From assembly GCA_034670405.1 (NCBI GenBank), contig JAXDDX010000013.1:5110001-5174000 (forward strand): a stretch of DNA of 64,000 nt, in the 5' to 3' direction. Position numbers and translations under genes: made by a program. Origin of the DNA: Hoplostethus atlanticus. Its lineage: Eukaryota > Chordata > Actinopteri > Trachichthyiformes > Trachichthyidae. Every line of letters begins with the position of its first letter. The stretch's first letter is position 1. Shown in pieces: positions 2,601 to 47,259 of the stretch. The notes under the pieces are model-generated. The model did not search any database. It saw nothing but the letters and a program-made list of their open reading frames with translations, and was not told where the DNA came from.

Positions 2601-3377
2601 AGAAAGGACCTGTCAGCCAATGTATAGAGGAAACATCCAGATGCCAGCAGAGTGCAGAGCGTAGCCCCCGGGGGCCCGACCCTCCGTCCACCACCACCAC
2701 TACAGCACTTCACGTAGATGAAGAGGACTCGGTCACAATGGCAACAAAAAGGCAGAAATAAAAAAACGTCCACGGCTCCGGTCATGTGGAAATCACGCCT
2801 GTGTGCACAGTCCATAAGGAAACCTGCATTAGGCTGTTGTTGGGGTTTTAATGGCAAAGCGACCAGTCCTGCGCAACTGCTATGCTGCTGCTGAAAACGT
2901 TATTGATCTCATGTTGTCACAGCAGCAAAAGTGATCGGATCAAGTGTAGGATAAGCAATAACGGTAGTAGAAATAATAAATACTGAAATACGGGTTACTA
3001 AACATAAAATATGCTGTGAATTTGTCATGTTCTTAAAAATATGTTTTCATTGCGTTCAAGCAGATTTACATTAATATGAGGCGATAATAAAGATGAGAGT
3101 GGAGCTGTGAAGATTCATCTTCCTCACGTGTTTCATTCAAGTGAGGTTAACCTATTTAAAATCCTCCTCGGGCGCCTAGTGCCATGTGCTTTAATGAGGA
3201 TTGAAGTCACGCCTGTTCTTAACCGTTTCAATAACTGAACATGCTCGCTAAACATGATGTCACTGAACAGTCCCGTAGACAGTGAACGCACCTAGTGAAC
3301 GCACCTGCCGTCGTCCTATGCATCCTATTGCTCCATTAAAGGGTAATTCCGGTATTTTTAAACCTGGGCTCTATTTG

Positions 3378-4819
3378 TAGGGTGGAGTCAGCTAAAATGG
3401 GCCACTTTTTGGTAAATGATTTATAAGACCATCAAATAAGCTATGCAGGAGATCTAATGATATTTTTATAAATTGGCATGGGTCTCTAAAATATTTATTT
3501 GTTAAAAAAATGTGAAAAAGTATAATTGTTTTGGATTTATGAGAGTTAGAGTATCAGCAGGTTCCCTCTTGAGCTACAACACAATGTTCAGGTAAAATGG
3601 GCCAGCTGTTCAGTTAAAATGGGCCAATATAAAGAGAGAACAACACAGTAATTTCAGCTGAAATCATTTTAATTTTAACAGTAAATTGACACTAACTATT
3701 GTCTTTGGTGTACCATAGTAACAACACCGTAAATACATTTCATGCAATAAAAAGTTGAACAAATATTTAATTGAAAAATGCATTTAAAAATTAACTGATC
3801 ATGTTGTATGGGTGTGTGTTTCTGCGCATTAGTGTCTTTGTGTCTGTTTTGTGTGTGTGTGTGTGTGTGTGTGTCTTTCTGGGACTGTGTGTAGCTGTGT
3901 GTGTGTGTAGGTGCATGCTTGTGTCAACATTTGTCAAACATTATGTTAAAAAGCTTTTTTCCCTTTGGTTGTTTTTTGTTAAGATTGTTAAGATTTCGCT
4001 TGGATACATCTAGACCAATGAACCTGTTTTGCGCCCTCAATTTCTGTGTAACGTCTGTGTAAGAGTGTGTGTGTATGTGGCCCATTTTAGCTGAAAATCA
4101 TGGCCTTTAGCTAGCTGGTTAAGCTAAAATGGGCCAATACCTAAAATTGCTTTTTTACCAATAAACCTGTTTTGCGCCCTCAATTTCTGTGTAACTTCTG
4201 TGTAAGAGTGTGTGTGTATGTGACCCATTTTAGCTGAAAATTGTGGCCTTTAGCTAGCTGGTTAAGCTAAAATGGGCCAATACCTAAAATTACTTTTTTA
4301 CCAATAAACCTGTTTTGCGCCCTCAATTTCTGTGTAACTTCTGTGTAAGAGTGTGTGTGTATGTGACCCATTTTAGCTGAAAATCATGGCCCATTTTAGC
4401 TAGCTGGTTAAGCTAAAATGGGCCAATACCTAAAATTACTTTTTTCACAAAAATCTAAGTTTCTTTTTAAATTTCAACTTTTTTATTTGAAAGAGCCTGT
4501 CAAAACATTGTTCATAAACATTTTGCTTTGTTGGTAAGCTTACTTAAAAATGCTTTATCACCCTTATTAGTGATGAGTGAAATTTGCTATGTCATGCTCA
4601 CTTACCATACAATTTCTCTGATGTACTTAATGTAACACTCTGCCCTGTCCACCTTAACAACCTCAGACTAATCAAAACTATTGTTACATGTCAACTAGTG
4701 TTGCAGCAACAATGCAAGATCAGTTATTGTGATTGGCTGTAAAATTTTAAAGGGCTATGAAGCTCCAACCTTATCTGGCCCATTTTACATGATGGCCCAT
4801 TTTAGCTGAGTCCACCCTA
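3378..4819. mobile_element. 1.44-kb terminal-inverted-repeat element full of a repeated GGCCCATTTTA motif
   Basis: The terminal inverted repeats are 27 bp (3378-3404 and 4793-4819) and differ at one position; both begin TAGGGTGG and run into AGCTAAAATGGGCCA. The flanking TA on each side fits a 2-bp target duplication, the element proper then starting GGGTGG. Inside are about twelve copies of TAAAATGGGCC or its complement in both orientations, a TG tract (3850-3874) and three tandem 143-bp units. No transposase frame is present, so it is non-autonomous. Multiple subterminal motifs of this kind usually act as transposase-binding sites; that role here is inferred. I cannot name the superfamily. 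Confidence 0.8.
4014..4442. repeat. Three tandem copies of a 143-bp unit
   Basis: Units begin at 4014, 4157 and 4300, each starting ACCAAT and continuing AACCTGTTTTGCGCCC, and each ending near TACCTAAAATT. They are nearly identical. Each carries one reverse and one forward copy of the TAAAATGGGCC motif, so the array multiplies that motif within the surrounding element. Confidence 0.92.
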
Positions 4820-5900
4820 CATATTAGTCATTTATAGGTACACAAAGTTTTGGAATTGCTCCGGTAGATCGCCTCAGTCAGCAGTCACAAAACGGGCTGC
4901 AATGGCTGCAACGTAATCCGCAGGGGCAAGTGCACCCGATCAAAGTACGTCCACTAAAAGTGCTTGTTTTTGCCACTGACAGGCTCAGATTGTTATTCGA
5001 AGTGGAGTAGGCTCCATGCTAACACTTCAGCTTGCATAGTAGGCTCCATGCTATTACCTTACCATCTTGAGTGACTACAGTTCTTTTAGACTCTAGTATA
5101 AAGGTTAATAAGATCTAACATTATATAGGCATATGTATTTTCCAATGATTGGACTTTTGTGTGGTTTGGTGACTCACAGAGCTTCTGTAGGTTTTGAAGA
5201 GCAAAGCTACCCTGACCGCGGGCATCCTGCCCTGAAACAACAGGATCATGGCCATGATCCCTCATGGCCTCATGGCTTAATGTTTTGGAAATGTAGGCCT
5301 ACACCCTCCATCTCACACAATCCAATCTATGTCATAAAATGGCATTCTCTCTTTACCCTGAAATCTCTGGAATTGCTATAATGGACGTATATCACTTATT
5401 TTAGAATTCATTTGAAATACCAAAAACATTGTTTATTAGACCTAGTTCGACACTGCTCTAAAACCTGGCATACTTTTAATGTAGATGATAAAGCACTTAA
5501 AATTTTAATTCCATGTAAACTGTGTATTTATCTCTTTATCACGAATGAAATGGCAAGTCCCCAAATCTAATATAATATCTTTATCTGCTGCATTTCTGAC
5601 TGATGACTGACAAGATATTATTATTTGGCCAGTGTGGTGAATTAGACATTGGTCACCCAACTATTAGGTAAGAGGGGACATTGGCCCCTAATGCTCATTG
5701 ATGAGAGTTTTAATAGGAGCCAAATTATTTTCTGGCAATTTTGCTTTTCACTTTCCATTATAATAAAAAATATACAGAATCATATTTGGGCTCACCTAAG
5801 CTACATTATGGCCAATGCCATATTCAAACCAATGCAATATAGTGAATAAAATGTAAATTGCAGCCCAGCGCGTCTCCGCCCCCATCTGACACACGGCGGA

Positions 5901-6245: not shown

Positions 6246-6294
6246 AGGATATTTGTTGTGCAACTTTATAAGTCTTTTTTCTTTTGCTTGGTGA
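6157..6294 (+). promoter_or_regulatory. Upstream ORF 2 in kcna5 leader (45 codons)
   Basis: ATG at 6157 starts only four bases after the ATG of the first upstream ORF, in another frame, and reads 45 codons to a stop at 6292-6294, 20 nt before the kcna5 start. The -3 base is T, so initiation should be weak. It may lower or condition kcna5 translation. Confidence 0.4.
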
Positions 6295-6303
6295 TTTTCT
6301 TTA

Positions 6304-6324
6304 ATGGCTTCGGAATGGAGATAG
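6304..6324 (+). promoter_or_regulatory. Short upstream ORF overlapping the kcna5 start codon
   Basis: ATG at 6304 encodes six residues (MASEWR) and stops with TAG at 6322-6324, so it overlaps the kcna5 ATG at 6315 in a different frame. The -3 base is T (weak), whereas the kcna5 ATG has G at -3 and G at +4. Ribosomes using this ATG would pass over the main start codon. Confidence 0.5.
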
Positions 6325-7991
6325 CCTTGGTGAGTTTTGAGAACGGCGGCGCGAAGGGGAGCGGAGGCAATGCCGACGAAATCTGCCGGAACGCACTGGA
6401 TCTCCCGCAACCTGCTTTGGTCCAAACCGGACTTGGCGAGGACTACAGTAAAGAGCTGAACACCCTCGGCAGTCGCAGGCAAAGCTCGTGGAAAAGCAAC
6501 GACATGAACAACACTTTCAGCTGCAGCGAAAATGCCATGGATGCGCTTTTACGCGCGGACCACAGTCCCCATCTGTTCGACGAGGACATGTTGGACATGG
6601 ACATGGACACGGAGAGCAACGAGAGGGTGCTCATCAACATAGCCGGTCTGAGGTACGAGACGCAGCTGGGGACGCTCAACCAGTTCCCCGATACTTTACT
6701 GGGAGACCCCACTAAAAGAATAAAATACTTTGATCCACTCAGGAACGAGTACTTTTTCGACCGCAACCGGCCAAGTTTTGATGGGATATTATATTTCTAT
6801 CAGTCGGGAGGGAAGATCCGGAGACCTGTCAATGTGTCAATTGACGTGTTTGCGGATGAGATCAGGTTTTATCAGCTAGGGGAGGAGGCCATGGAGAGGT
6901 TTCGTGAAGATGAGGGTTTTATAAAAGAGGAAGAAAAGCCATTGCCTCAGAATGAATTTCAAAAGCAGGTATGGCTCATATTTGAGTACCCGGAGAGCTC
7001 CAGTCCCGCGAGGGGCATCGCTATTGTCTCTGTGATTGTAATCACCATATCCATCATCACATTCTGCCTGGAAACGTTACCAGAGTTCCGGGATGAGAGG
7101 GAGCTCCCGGTGACCAGCCGACCTGACAACAGCACTGCGCCCCGTCCGTCGCTGACCTTCACGGATCCCTTTTTCATCATAGAGACCACTTGTGTGATAT
7201 GGTTCACGTTTGAGCTGTTCGTACGGTTTTTTGCGTGCCCCAGCAAGTCCGAGTTCTCGAAGACCATCATGAACATCATAGACATCATGTCTATCATGCC
7301 TTACTTCATCACAGTGGGCACGGAGCTGGCAGAGCAGCAGGGCCAAGAGCACCAGAACGGCCAGCAGGCCATGTCTCTGGCCATCCTGAGGGTCATCCGC
7401 CTGGTCAGGGTGTTCAGGATCTTCAAGCTGTCCCGGCACTCCAAAGGACTCCAGATTCTGGGACAGACGCTGAAAGCCAGCATGAGAGAGCTCGGCCTCT
7501 TGATCTTCTTCCTCTTCATCGGAGTCATCCTGTTCTCCAGCGCCGTTTTCTTCGCAGAGGCGGACGAGCCCGAGTCTCATTTCTCCAGCATCCCCGATGC
7601 CTTCTGGTGGGCTGTGGTCACCATGACAACTGTTGGCTATGGCGACATGAGGCCGGTGACGGTCGGGGGGAAGATCGTCGGTTCCCTCTGTGCCATCGCC
7701 GGTGTGCTGACCATCGCCCTGCCGGTGCCAGTCATCGTGTCTAACTTCAATTACTTTTATCACAGAGAGACAGACCAGGACCAGTCGTCTCTCAAAGATG
7801 AGCCTAACAGTGGCCGCGCGAGCCCCGAATTGAAACGGAGAGGGAGTAAATCATCAGTCAAATCACAAGACGTGGAAAACAACGACGGGGCCACCTCGGT
7901 GGAAAAGGCAAATATCAAAGCTAACAGCAGCATGGACATCAAAAGATCCCTTTACGCGTTCTGCTTGGACTCACGGGAAACGGACCTGTAG
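6315..7991 (+). CDS. kcna5: Voltage-gated K+ channel Kv1.5 (Shaker subfamily A member 5), single exon
   Basis: Intronless 558-codon gene for a Shaker-type delayed-rectifier K+ channel alpha subunit; four subunits form a plasma-membrane pore. The N-terminus [12 protein letters not shown] matches the known MEIALV start of mammalian Kv1.5, which sets the start at 6315; the frame stays open upstream but has no in-frame ATG. Domains: T1 tetramerisation about 104-205 ([19 protein letters not shown]); S1 about 232-252; S2 about 285-306; S3 about 318-337; S4 about 357-375 with regularly spaced arginines ([19 protein letters not shown]); S5 about 392-413; selectivity filter TVGYGD 439-444; S6 with PVP gating motif 470-472; C-terminal PDZ ligand ETDL. 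An N-glycosylation sequon NST (272-274) lies in the S1-S2 loop. At 558 aa it is shorter than human Kv1.5 (613 aa), mainly because the proline-rich SH3-binding N-terminal segment is missing. All key pore and gating residues are intact. Confidence 0.97.
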
Positions 7992-17719: not shown

Positions 17720-18152
17720 ATTACATTACATTACATTGCATTACAGTCATTTAGCAGACGCTTTTATCCAAAGCGACTTACAATGAGTGCATTCAACATA
17801 GTGCATTTCCTTCCTAAACAAGCATCTCAGAGCAGAACCAGTGCTAAGGTATAAGTGCAATAAGTTAGCTACCTACTTTTTATTTCAACAAATGAGACAA
17901 ATAAGTGAAGCATATAACGAAGTGCTAAGAGGAAGGGTCAGGGTAGTGTTTCTTGAAGAGGTGGGTTTTCAGCCTGCGGCGAAAGATGGGCAGCGACTCT
18001 GCTGTCCTGACATCAGTGGGGAGTTCATTCCACCACTGTGGGGTCAGGACAGAAAAGAGCCGTGACCATGTAGATCGGGCTGCAGGGGCCTCAGAGCGAC
18101 GGGGCAACCAGTCGCCTCGAGGCAGCAGAAAATAATTAACCCCCATCGTCAA
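17720..18152 (-). mobile_element. LINE 3' end (C-terminus of reverse transcriptase ORF plus 3' tail)
   Basis: On the - strand a frame at 18152-17925 reads LFSVLTPQWWNELPTDVRTA then ESLPIFRRRLKTHLFKKH, the characteristic C-terminal tail of fish non-LTR reverse transcriptases (W-N-x-L-P-x-x-V-R...F-R-R-R-L-K-T-H-L-F). After the stop comes about 200 bp of 3' UTR ending in GTCGCTTTGGATAAAAGCGT then CTGCTAAATGACTGTAATG and a short TAATG-type repeat tail (near 17720-17745). This fits a 5'-truncated insertion, most likely L2-like. No N-terminal or polymerase-domain sequence is present, so it is dead. Confidence 0.85.
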
Positions 18153-25490: not shown

Positions 25491-25564
25491 ACAGAATCTA
25501 TAGATGCTGGATGCTGGCGGGCATAAGAGTATGCCCGCCAGCATCCAGCATCTATAGATTCTGT
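25491..25564. repeat. Perfect inverted repeat, 35-bp arms, 4-nt loop
   Basis: The left arm 25491-25525 (ACAGAATCTATAGATGCTGG onward) is the exact reverse complement of the right arm 25530-25564, with AGAG between. Within each arm there is a further GATGCTG/GATGCTG direct repeat. It resembles the 12593 hairpin in arm length and loop size but shares no sequence with it. Confidence 0.97.
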
Positions 25565-42197: not shown

Positions 42198-42392
42198 TAT
42201 ATGTTTTATCACAGTAAACTTAATGTTGACTTGACTCTATTTCTAAATGAAACTGAGGAATTCAGTCCAGGATGCTGCCAGATTGAGGGCATCTCAGACT
42301 TTGCATGCTTTCAAGGACAAACCCTCTTTTTTTTTTTTTTTTTTAAATGACTTATTGGATTCTGGAAAACAAAATAGGTAAAGCCTCGTGAT
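42198..42392 (+). repeat. Inverted duplicate, copy 1
   Basis: About 195 bp that recurs as the reverse complement at 44091-44283. Shared text includes GAGGAATTCAGTCCAGGAT, GATTGAGGGCATCTCAGACT, TTGCATGCTTTCAAGGACAA, a T-run (42327-42344) and AATAGGTAAAGCCTCGTGAT. By eye roughly nine bases in ten agree. Confidence 0.95.
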
Positions 42393-43996
42393 GGCAGGGA
42401 ACTCTCTTTTCAGTTCCACCCATTCTGGGAGCTGATTATCACGGGCTGTCTTGAGGAGTGATGCTTTATCTCACAGCAGCAGACGTCCGAGCTGGTACAG
42501 TAGACTAGTGATTTCCAGCAAGGCTTGTCCGGCTGTATTTTTTCCCGAGGGGGAAAAATAATAGACTTGTGTCCGAGATCCCTCTTACAGAGCTGCATGA
42601 GCATCGCTGTGAGAGCCAGCAGCACTATCTACCCCTGTCTATATGTCCAGCCTCTGCCCCTTGCTATTATTATGCTCGCCGAATGCCACGGGCAGCATTG
42701 TAGTCATGGGAAATACCACATTCCCACAGTGAGGGATTTCCTAAGCTGGAAAGATGTTCCATGGAATGATATTCCCGGGTAAATGCTCATTTTAACAAGC
42801 TGTTTTAATGACAGTACCAGGTAGCAAGCCAGTGGAGGTCCAATGGGGCCGACTAGTTGGACCAACGTTGGGTCAATGTTAGATTTCGGCTTGTAGCCAA
42901 CCACAAATTGGGGTCTGCTAATGATTACTCTTAATTGATAAATTGATGTACTGATGTGTGTTTAGATTTTTAAATTGCTATTTATATACATTTAAAAAGT
43001 GTATGTGGTTTCACAGTGTGGGGAAATTTAAGTAAGGATGAATTTCAATTTCCAAAGTACATTTTTGGAAGGGCACATCTCCAGAGCCTCTGTAGTAGAA
43101 AGAGAAGGAAGAGATGATTAAGTGTGATAAAGTCATATTCAATAGAACTTTATATCTCTTGCACATTTAAGGCAGTGAAGCAGACACAGAGTGAAGGGAG
43201 AAGTTAAGTTTGAGTAGTATAACCATCGAAGCAATACAAAAAAAGATAGAGCAGCGTGAACTTACTTTCATGTTACAGTCTGCACAGTGAGGCGGTCAGA
43301 TACTGCAGAAGGAACAGTTTACTATATACAGTCACATGAAATCAGGATAGGATAACAGGATATTGCAGGGAAAAAGACCAACATATATTAATAATCAATA
43401 ATAATAAAATGAAATAAATAATAAATGCTTATAGCATATAACAGAACAGTAAATAAAACAGTAAAACATCTAATAAAAAACAATAAAGCATTAAAATAGA
43501 ATGTAAAATAGAATGTACGCTGCAGCTGTTGCACACAGATGTTACAGCCTCGACATCTTACTTAAACATGGATTACTACATTAGAAATATGTCCTATATA
43601 GGTAACAATATAATACAATCTAAACACATCAGTATGTATACAGTATGAAATACCATTATGAAAACAGAATATAACAATGACTCGAAATTAAATGACTGTA
43701 ACTGGCACACAGTGGGACGCTGTATGATCAGAATGAGAATGATCTCTGATTCTAATTAAGCTTATTTTAATGATCCATTACAGTTTGTAAAATCTGTGTT
43801 GTGTTTATCAATTTATTATAATCAAGCCATCTAAATACATTTGTTCGCTTAGTGTAAAAGCCTGCCTTATAATGATTAATATTGTTATTATGATATATAT
43901 ATAAAACAGCCTCCCATAGGCTAACTTTCTACTTTTGCTCCTCACATCTAAATTTTAGCTTATTTATTTGAAGGAAATGACAAGTAGGAGAGACCG

Positions 43997-44348
43997 GGGC
44001 ACTGTGGGACAGACTAAAAATAGAATGTTTCCATTGGTGAAACAGGTGATTCACTGCATGTTTCACCAATGGAAACATTCTATTTTTAGAATCACGAGGC
44101 TTTACCTATTTTTTTTCCCCCACAATCCAATAAGTCATTTAAAAAAAAAAAAAAAAAAAAGAGGGTTTGTCCTTGAAAGCATGCAAAGTCTGAGATGCCC
44201 TCAATCTGGCAGAATCCTGGACTGAATTCCTCACTGTTTAGAAATAGAGTCAAGTCAACTTTAACTTTACCGTGATAAAACATAGACATGATTCACAGCA
44301 TGTTTCACCAATGGAAACGTTCTATTTTTAGTCTGTCCCACAGTGCCC
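43997..44348. mobile_element. 352-bp element with 47-bp terminal inverted repeats
   Basis: The left end 43997-44043 (GGGCACTGTGGGACAGACTA onward to GGTGAAAC) and the right end 44302-44348 are reverse complements with one mismatch by eye. Just inside the left terminus a further 30-bp inverted copy of the terminal segment (44060-44089) forms a hairpin with 44014-44043, with 16 nt between the arms. The rest of the interior is the 193-bp segment shared with 42198-42392. No coding capacity; superfamily not identified. Confidence 0.85.
44091..44283 (-). repeat. Inverted duplicate, copy 2 (inside the 352-bp element)
   Basis: Reverse-complement copy of 42198-42392, containing a 20-nt A-run at 44141-44160 corresponding to the T-run of copy 1. 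It lies entirely between the inner hairpin and the right terminal repeat of the 43997-44348 element. Confidence 0.95.
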
Positions 44349-47259
44349 TGGCCTCCCCTAGCGATCGACTCCTATACCTTCAATGCACTAAGTGAAATCA
44401 CCACTAAAGGCGACTGTGTTTTGTTTTCCCCCCCAAATGTCTTATATTCCTATATAAGTCAAAGCGTATTTGACTGTGTAAACTGGTCTCAGGTCATTTT
44501 AACTGGATTAAGGGTTGTTTTGACAGGACTGTCTGGTTTGTCTGGGTCTGGTCAGAGGAGTCGACCGGCTTTGTAAATCTCATCGGACACAAAAAGCCAC
44601 ATACATCCATGTAAATCCCATTTTTTACTACACCTACTAATCCCAGCAGTTAGCTATCATACGAGGTGGATGCATAGTTGTTCTAGATTGAGATAACACC
44701 ATCGAAATGAGAACAGTAACAAAGAAACAACATTGTGGAAAATGGTGGAGTGACAATCAAATCCATAAAACGACTTGAAGCGTTTAATAGGCTGCTGACT
44801 GGGGCGGGCTTCCCTTCCAACAATATCTGATGAGTATTATTTTATGTTGGCGGGTTGTTATCCTCTCTCATGCATTTGATACGAGTGCAACGTTTGGAGG
44901 CAGACGGGGGAAAAAGTGGAAGAGTCGCAAGTTGGATTGCATTTTGGTTACAAAATTTGAAATAGGATCATTTATTGGACTCTTTGTGGGGCATATACTG
45001 TTTATCAGTCAGTAGGCTATATACAACATATAGACATGGTGGAAGTTGATTGTTGTGTGGCCTGACTAAAGTACCTGCCTATCTATGTTAAGAAATCTGG
45101 ATAAGGCATGGTAAATAAAAGATGAGGCCCTGAGATGAGAGCCCTGGGTGCTTTAAAAAAAAAAAAAATCGGCCTTCATCGTTTAAACTTGTGTGATGAA
45201 GGCATCTTGTTAAACGTTTTAGATAAGTGTCTTTTCTATGGGTTGCCTATGGGGATTTTTTTTTCCTGGGCCAAATGAGAAAAGCTGCAATACCAACCTC
45301 AGCCACCAGGCCAAATTGGCAGCTAGGCTGATTTATTGCATTTCGCACTGTATATAAAGTCAAATTTACCTAATTGAAACATCATAGTGTAATAGCCAAC
45401 CATAAAGCCAATGTGCCTTCTGCCAGTCTGGCTGAGCTATTTGCCTCTTACTACCGGGTCAAGCATCATCACAGTTACATGAGCTTGGACCGTGGGCAAT
45501 AAGTTGTCAAAAATGATGTTCCCTGACTCAATCACTGCTTTAAAAGTGTCAGTGGGAGGACGAAGCCTGAGGCTGTGGTGCAAAATGTGTGGACTCCTCA
45601 TTCCCTCGGACCTGTTTCGGATCAGATGGGGTCTGCTACACCCATGTATATTGCTACTGATGCATCAAAGGTCAGTATGAGTCTTTTCCCAGTTGCTTTT
45701 GCTTCTCAGTGTTATGCAGGCAGACCAGTGACTTTTATGATTACAAAGTGACCAGCGCCTTCAGAGAGCTGGATCCGACGCAGGAAATGCCTTAGCGAAG
45801 CCTTCACGGTGGAGTACCAGGAGAAGCGCTTGGATTTCTCCACCTCTGCACTCCTGTCAGCCTGGATACACCTCTGAAGATGGATATATAATTGATCTTG
45901 CCATTCATCTGTGGCTGAAGATGGATTGTGATGCTTTTTTCTGAATCGAAGTTCATCCTCCATTGAAGCACAAATACATACTCCCTTCAGCGGCAGCCTT
46001 ACAACTACAAGAGCTCCCACACCCACTCTGAGGTGTGGGTTCAATCCTTTGAGAAGGCCTGTCAGAGCAGCACATCCTTACTGTTCTTCCTTGCAGGACA
46101 GTCAGTCATTTTGGCAGCTTCAGATGGACACAAATCACAAAATTGCAAGAAAGCTGCTTTAAAGTGGGAGAACATAAAGAACATATGGACAGACGATTAT
46201 GCCCTGAATGAAGAGGTGCTGGGTTTTATCAATAAGCTACAATGCTTCACTGACAATAATAAATTAGGTCATTCAGGATGCAAACGTTAATATAAGATTG
46301 TAATAAATACCACGTAATAGGGCTATAAAAAGTATTGACTATCGACTAAGACTCTTGGTGCTAATGCAGTGTGTCCATATAAAGTGACACTTCTGATCTA
46401 CTGACCTGTGTGCACGTGTGGAAATGGGGTAGAAACTTGGCAGGATACTTTTTGTGACCCAGTTAATATGTACTTTGAGAAGTGGCTATGTTAGGGCGAA
46501 AAAAAAACACAGATTTTTGACACGGATCACTCCCAATTGACTAAACCAAAATGTGGTATTTAAAGCCTAGAGGAAGCAAATCGTAATATATATTATCGCT
46601 GGTTGATGAAGCCAAACCTCCATTGACCAAACGTTTGTCAGCCCTTCATCTGCTGGCCTCTGGCTCGGCTTCAGTGGGGAGATCACAGTCTGTTGCATCA
46701 CCTGGCTGCCTATTGCTTTGAGAGCGATGCTGCTCGCCATGGGACCGTGGTTTTGCCTCGGGTCTGGACTCTAATCGGAAACATGTGACTGAATAAATGA
46801 ATCAGATGCCAAACCCATTACGAGCACAGAAGCAATTAGCGTGCCTCTTAGTGAAGACGAGCCTTAGCTTTCACTCACAGATGCTGTTCTGTCAAACTGA
46901 TCAGAGGTCAGACAGACAGGTAGAGGTAAAACCCCAACAGACAGACCTGTAGCTTTGTGTTTGTGCATCCGGCTCAAAAAGGTAGCCGGCCTTTAGGTCA
47001 TTTTTTAATTTCATTCAGGATACTGGCCTCTTACTGGCCTGTCACCAGAACTTATCACATCTAAACATAGCTTGATAGTGTGCGATGAATCCCAGTCTGA
47101 TCTTTACACAACTGATCCCAAGACATTTCTGTTCTGGATGACACGCTCACCTTTCTCTTACAGGGTTGTCAGTCAAAACTCAAATTTCCCCCGACTGCAG
47201 CTAATTAAAGCGACAGAGTTGTGGCCAATGGGAATAGCTGTGGGTGGTGGTGTCAAGGT

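Follow-up and report, generated by a model that had tools for sequence, protein, structure and literature searches.

Structure of the element in the window

The window analyzed here was a 64-kb stretch of the Hoplostethus atlanticus genome (contig JAXDDX010000013.1, positions 5,110,001 to 5,174,000). Near its left end, a non-autonomous DNA transposon containing a tandem array interrupted another repeat. The features were assigned as follows; L-numbers denote loci in the same genome.

3339–3379, no strand: left part of the interrupted host repeat (39/41 identical to L036:2013–2053)
3378–3379, no strand: left target duplication, TA (one TA at the paralogous empty site, L036)
3380–4817, no strand: non-autonomous DNA transposon, window copy, 1438 bp (inverted ends, TA on either side, genome-wide repeated family)
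3380–3404, plus: left inverted end, GGGTGGAGTCAGCTAAAATGGGCCA (contains the motif at 3393–3403)
3593–3603, plus: left subterminal motif (motif scan)
3615–3625, plus: left subterminal motif (motif scan)
3954–4013, minus: terminal piece of a transposase-type frame, basic linker (the PHD-like end with which other copies continue is lost by deletion at about 3953/3954)
4014–4445, no strand: tandem array of three units, 4014–4156, 4157–4299, and 4300–4445 (143, 143, and 146 bp; 1–7 units elsewhere)
4079–4089, minus: array motif, unit 1 (motif scan)
4102–4109, minus: array motif with a 3-base deletion, unit 1 (unit comparison)
4125–4135, plus: array motif, unit 1 (motif scan)
4222–4232, minus: array motif with one mismatch, unit 2 (motif scan)
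4245–4252, minus: array motif with a 3-base deletion, unit 2 (unit comparison)
4268–4278, plus: array motif, unit 2 (motif scan)
4365–4375, minus: array motif with one mismatch, unit 3 (motif scan)
4388–4398, minus: array motif, unit 3 (motif scan)
4414–4424, plus: array motif, unit 3 (motif scan)
4777–4787, minus: right subterminal motif (motif scan)
4793–4817, minus: right inverted end (contains the motif at 4794–4804)
4818–4819, no strand: right target duplication, TA (one TA at the paralogous empty site, L036)
4818–5004, no strand: right part of the interrupted host repeat (gapped alignment to L036 up to 2220)

Positions 3378–3404 and 4793–4819 were complementary across 27 bases with one mismatch, in agreement with the original prediction, made from this DNA alone, of 27-bp terminal inverted repeats with a single mismatch and TA on both flanks. 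Since the outermost TA on each side represents the duplicated target, the element proper spanned 3380–4817, with 25-bp ends (one mismatch) and GGGTGG at its termini. An inverted repeat of 27 bp with at most one mismatch within 3 kb was found in none of twenty first-order random 64-kb windows. The real window contained 205 such 27-bp inverted pairs, and the 25 listed were all AC/TG microsatellites, unlike the pair of the element. The predicted 143-bp unit in three tandem copies that multiply the motif was also found, and the element was nested in another repeat, as proposed, an empty copy of the surrounding repeat being present at L036:2013–2220. The window copy had lost approximately 210 bp, between 3953 and 3954, that most copies carry.

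Elsewhere in the window, positions 6246–7991 (plus strand) encoded a 581-aa frame with BTB and ion-channel domains of the voltage-gated potassium channel type, within which the Rfam K_chan_RES editing signal was located at 7632–7745. An Rfam UnaL2 LINE 3' element was present at 17741–17791 (minus strand), and a perfect 35-bp inverted repeat with a 4-base loop at 25491–25564. Long inverted repeats approximately 2 kb apart, with arms of 91 bp (99%) and 48 bp (94%), occupied 42200–44360, together with a further inverted pair at 43985–44360; these are possibly nested fold-back elements.

Distribution of the end motif

The element contained 12 sites for the motif TAAAATGGGCC when one mismatch was allowed, 10 being exact, whereas 100 dinucleotide-preserving shuffles of the window averaged 1.38 and never exceeded 5. 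This count matched the expectation of about twelve copies in either orientation, both termini included. Two further sites with a 3-base deletion each (4102–4109 and 4245–4252) brought the number to 14 in all, and the exact 10-base sequence AAAATGGGCC was not found in the 64-kb window outside the element. The sites were oriented plus, plus, plus at the left, minus, minus, plus in each of the three tandem units, and minus, minus at the right. When eight sites were compared (all five that lie outside the array, plus the three in unit 3), agreement was 98% over 12 core bases, 69% over the preceding five bases, and 25–28% farther out. This confinement of the agreement to the 12-base core suggested that the core was the recognized word and not merely the trace of a longer duplicated block.

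At 4078–4136, in the first unit of the array, motifs of opposite orientation can pair to form a hairpin with a 15-bp stem; the unit folded better than shuffled sequences (z score of -2.5, with 2 of 200 shuffles equally good).

The element was not found in phages or plasmids, nor its right flank in phages. A 20-mer end pattern had no match in a separate collection of genome contigs, and a 23-mer of the outer repeat had none in viral and genome contigs. Eleven stretches of viral contigs had a single exact 16-mer match and a single motif each and were taken for chance. Literature searches with the motif letters returned a paper on a lysosomal protein, judged by its title, and none on transposons; among the matches listed for the end and motif words, there was no transposon title.

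A repeated family in the source genome

A search of the source genome (632.8 Mb, 1161 contigs) for other copies, which the original prediction had proposed, detected at least 91 matching pieces, including the window copy, with the best 40 of 135 candidates scored. The locus was therefore not single-copy, nor were its termini confined to it: both ends were recognized in 31 of the 38 copies fetched, and the other seven were without a recognized left end in the stretch read. These 38 copies, the window copy, and five obtained later (L070, L073, L074, L075, and L077) gave 44 copies, which were grouped by shared flanks into 30 independent insertions. TA was present on both sides in 28 of the 29 complete independent insertions; in the exception, L022, the right tip was one base shorter before TA. 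In 31 complete copies, counted before L031, L034, and L070 were grouped at one common site, TA was preceded by A or G in 26 and followed by C or T in 24. The number of motif copies per complete element ranged from 5 to 19 (37 complete copies).

The TA duplication was also checked at an empty site. At L036:2013–2220, the surrounding repeat was present without the element and had a single TA at the insertion point. Identity of this site with the window flanks was 73% overall with gaps, and 39/41 positions were identical to the left of the junction. The family thus had the inverted ends, target duplication, and many dispersed copies without a transposase that define a non-autonomous DNA transposon, and the description of a repeated, TA-duplicating element with a variable array held across the source genome. 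Copies diverged from the majority sequence by approximately 1% at the left end, versus 2% at the right end. Such values suggest that the family is young, but the best-scored 40 of 135 candidates supplied most of the copies and older ones may be missed.

Twelve of the 44 copies lay at one place inside another transposable element (L023, L025–L028, L033, L046, L052–L056; L058–L065). The host part of this carrier was approximately 1.4 kb (longer in one copy), with inverted ends of approximately 326 bp, the tip TATGGCGGCATATGAG, and 6-bp target duplications, as read, in the four copies examined. The occurrence of the composite on many contigs indicated that one non-autonomous element carries another.

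Unit number and history of the tandem array

Units were counted when more than 115 of 146 positions matched, so that shortened units were left out (L073 and L077 have at least one each), and were 143–146 bp long across copies. Arrays of 1, 2, 3, 4, 5, and 7 units were present in 3, 12, 23, 2, 2, and 2 of the 44 copies, and in 2, 12, 12, 1, 2, and 1 of the 30 independent insertions, respectively. Two groups of copies at single insertion sites were informative. In group A (12 copies), 11 copies had three units and L046 had four. In group B, L031 and L034 had three units each, L049 had seven, and L070 had one, which was degenerate; a left-flank match of 98% placed L031 in this group, with a right flank only 75% like that of L049, and L049 had an extra stretch of approximately 0.6 kb inside the array and no recognized left end. 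As unit number differed among copies of one insertion, it changed after insertion, assembly error aside. The earlier suggestion that the array may be expanding was consequently borne out as to change but not as to direction, contraction being equally possible.

Some deletions were specific to unit position. A 1-base deletion was present in 16 of 28 last units, 2 of 30 first units, and 3 of 25 middle units, and a 3-base deletion in 11 of 30 first units, 11 of 25 middle units, and none of 28 last units. These patterns indicated that transposition had already copied arrays with two or more distinct units by the time later changes arose; judged from them, the array is old.

Conservation of the motif sites

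We compared the 12-base cores with the surrounding sequence in independent copies. The variable-column tests count an inherited change once, and all the tests treat related copies as independent. Variable columns numbered 1/36 in cores versus 93/387 in others at the left end (Fisher p = 0.0014; random 12-column blocks, p = 0.03), 4/24 versus 180/316 at the right end (Fisher p = 0.0002; blocks, p = 0.003), and 5/36 versus 33/110 in the array (Fisher p = 0.08; blocks, p = 0.11). The end-proximal cores thus varied significantly less than their surroundings, and the array cores did so only as a tendency. At the left, substitution cells were 0/336 in the terminal site and 1/600 in the subterminal sites, versus 120/10922 in the surroundings, and at the right they were 4/360 and 2/350, respectively, versus 198/9414; terminal sites are favored in these counts, because the ends served to recognize complete copies.

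Gaps were distributed differently from substitutions. At the left, 96 gap cells fell in 24 subterminal columns versus 301 in 387 others, and in 9 of 29 representatives just one of the two left subterminal sites was exact. In the array, 116 gap cells fell in 36 core columns versus 28 in 110 others. The combination of common deletions and few substitutions in the cores suggested that single sites near the ends or in the array are dispensable, and that the sequence that remains is kept, at least at the ends. We also considered whether the array sites were decaying, as dissent in 87 units was 0.044 in array cores versus 0.0165 elsewhere with gaps counted. This reading was rejected: two widespread deletions made the difference, and with substitutions alone the sign was reversed, weakly by columns.

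The array might itself have been selected, if copies with more transposase-binding sites competed better for a transposase supplied in trans and so spread. An identical 12-base core at the ends and in the array is consistent with such selection, as are the presence of at least two units in 28 of the 30 independent insertions and the lower change of array cores by substitutions only (9/2872 cells versus 96/9102 in the rest of the unit; 83 units from independent insertions). A precedent is given by Galileo, in which internal tandem repeats carry extra transposase-binding sites according to one report (PMC4079207). Set against these points are the mere tendency in variable columns, the excess of deletions in array cores, two of them widespread, the insertion of one-unit copies as well (L074 and L075), and the rarity of arrays of four to seven units (4/30 insertions). 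We regard selection of the array as possible, though on the doubtful side.

Possible transposase remnant and search for an autonomous element

The end of the approximately 210-bp stretch that is absent from the window copy was found in 28 of 30 representatives. Its minus strand encoded a basic linker, a Cys/His finger, and a stop in the eight copies translated, one of which, L023, had a frame shift just before the stop. The stretch reads as a PHD-like C-terminal end, although the fragment of L020 scored below the cut-off as PHD in Pfam (E = 0.014; 15.8 versus 24 bits). A finger of this kind is frequent at the end of fish pogo transposases, and PHD-like fingers also occur in unrelated proteins. 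When the genome was searched with the C-terminal fragment (150 of 232 candidates scored), the longest open frame at the matches was 156 aa, indicating that no intact transposase was attached. A Pfam scan of nine of the 14 window frames of at least 35 aa gave no hit above the cut-off.

In 15 of 30 representative copies, a frame of 108–110 aa began at the motif's ATG and ran into the PHD-like end. The candidate that this frame encodes a small protein of the element was rejected: the last 85 codons were unconstrained, with 25 silent and 111 altering changes where 29.8 silent changes were expected (SD 4.6). This test used 28 representatives, L032 and the window copy being dropped for want of a stop anchor, and five of the 28 were gapped, which may inflate the altering changes.

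All 22 candidates for DDE_1 (PF03184) in the genome were scored and gave 15 matches, at 14 places. The autonomous relative with the same termini that the original prediction had called for was not found among them: neither the motif nor an element end was present at any of the 15 DDE_1 loci, with 3.2–3.5 kb read at each, and the best resemblance to the end, at L080, had 7/25 mismatches. A PHD-like stretch lay downstream on the same strand at four of the 15 matches (L083, L087, L089, and L092). The tblastn E values of these four stretches were 9e-5, 0.004, 0.014, and 0.014, three of them weak, and were obtained with the low-complexity filter off, so that a lysine-rich linker may help the matches. 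In Pfam, the downstream stretch of L087 was above the PHD cut-off (31.7 versus 24 bits), and those of L089 and L083 were below it.

These data bear on whether the family belongs instead to another TA-inserting group of IS630-Tc1-mariner or to an undescribed superfamily, the PHD-like fragment being coincidental or captured. TA alone does not separate these groups, the ends were shared with no DDE_1 locus, and the PHD score of the fragment was below the cut-off. On the other side, the end of the frame, with its basic linker, Cys/His finger, and stop, resembles the layout downstream of the four DDE_1 matches, and we consider an origin outside pogo unlikely. For mobilization, a pogo-type transposase is our best guess from the TA duplication, short ends, and PHD-like remnant.

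Interpretation

Taken together, we consider it fairly probable that the element belongs to a non-autonomous cut-and-paste family of 1.3–2.1 kb that inserts at TA, its likeliest origin being deletion from a pogo-type (DDE_1) element. Transposase provided in trans would bind the putative 12-base site TAAAATGGGCCA at and near both ends and, once bound, would bring the ends together and move the element. The tandem block multiplies the same motif internally and may grow or shrink by unequal exchange or replication slippage; its sites may assist in recruiting transposase or may simply be tolerated. That the motif is instead a site for a host factor (a promoter or insulator element), the copies spreading mainly by riding in other repeats as 12 of 44 do in one transposable element, is very improbable given the motif at both tips and the self-movement evident from 30 independent insertions, 28 of the 29 complete ones with TA on both sides.

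A bolder possibility is that the array is an evolving weapon, in which the tandem-multiplied transposase-binding site of the element, with a unit number that changes in place, would take transposase from the autonomous element and from sister copies, and may have contributed to the disappearance of the autonomous element from this genome. We think this distinctly improbable.

Comparison with known transposons

According to one report (PMC7386202), pogo families have a DDE_1-type transposase, mostly duplicate TA, and in most cases have ends no longer than 40 bp; Passer of three fish has 28-bp ends in a second report (PMC9976928). The element resembles this superfamily (Passer, Tigger, and others; IS630-Tc1-mariner class) in its TA duplication and in its 25-bp ends, which are within the limit of 40 bp. 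It differs in that no transposase was found in the family and in its 5–19 copies of the end motif, many of them in a tandem array. No such motif array was noted in titles and parts of papers on pogo elements, a scope that leaves absence from print unproven.

Galileo and Tetris, foldback elements of Drosophila, likewise have tandem repeats inside, and parts of a report describe the variable number of Tetris repeats beside the extra transposase-binding sites of Galileo (PMC4079207). Their repeats lie within long inverted ends, whereas the array of the element is internal, nearer one end, and the element has 25-bp ends and a TA duplication. Membership of the Galileo/foldback group requires long inverted ends bearing the repeats and was rejected.

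In CACTA (En/Spm) elements, a short motif recurs in either orientation at many subterminal sites, and they resemble the element in this respect; their termini are CACTA or CACTG, and they were ruled out by the GGGTGG termini. ISL2EU, a Harbinger-like group found in several teleosts, also has a 2-bp target duplication, which parts of two reports give as AT (PMC9179366 for the length and hosts; PMC4482050 for the AT). It was ruled out because the element duplicates TA and not AT, as seen in 28 of 29 copies and at the empty site. The target duplication of piggyBac and Kolobok is TTAA; these groups were excluded by the base before TA, which was A, G, or C and never T in the 31 complete copies.

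Compared with these systems, and as far as the portions of the literature covered extend, a motif array in a pogo-type element would appear to be new, whereas internal tandem transposase sites are already known from Galileo. In this family, with 1 to 7 units and 5 to 19 candidate binding sites per complete copy, copies of the same insertion that differ in array length form a natural series. With such a series one could ask if added transposase sites favor or impede transposition, and could follow the birth of a minisatellite within a mobile element.
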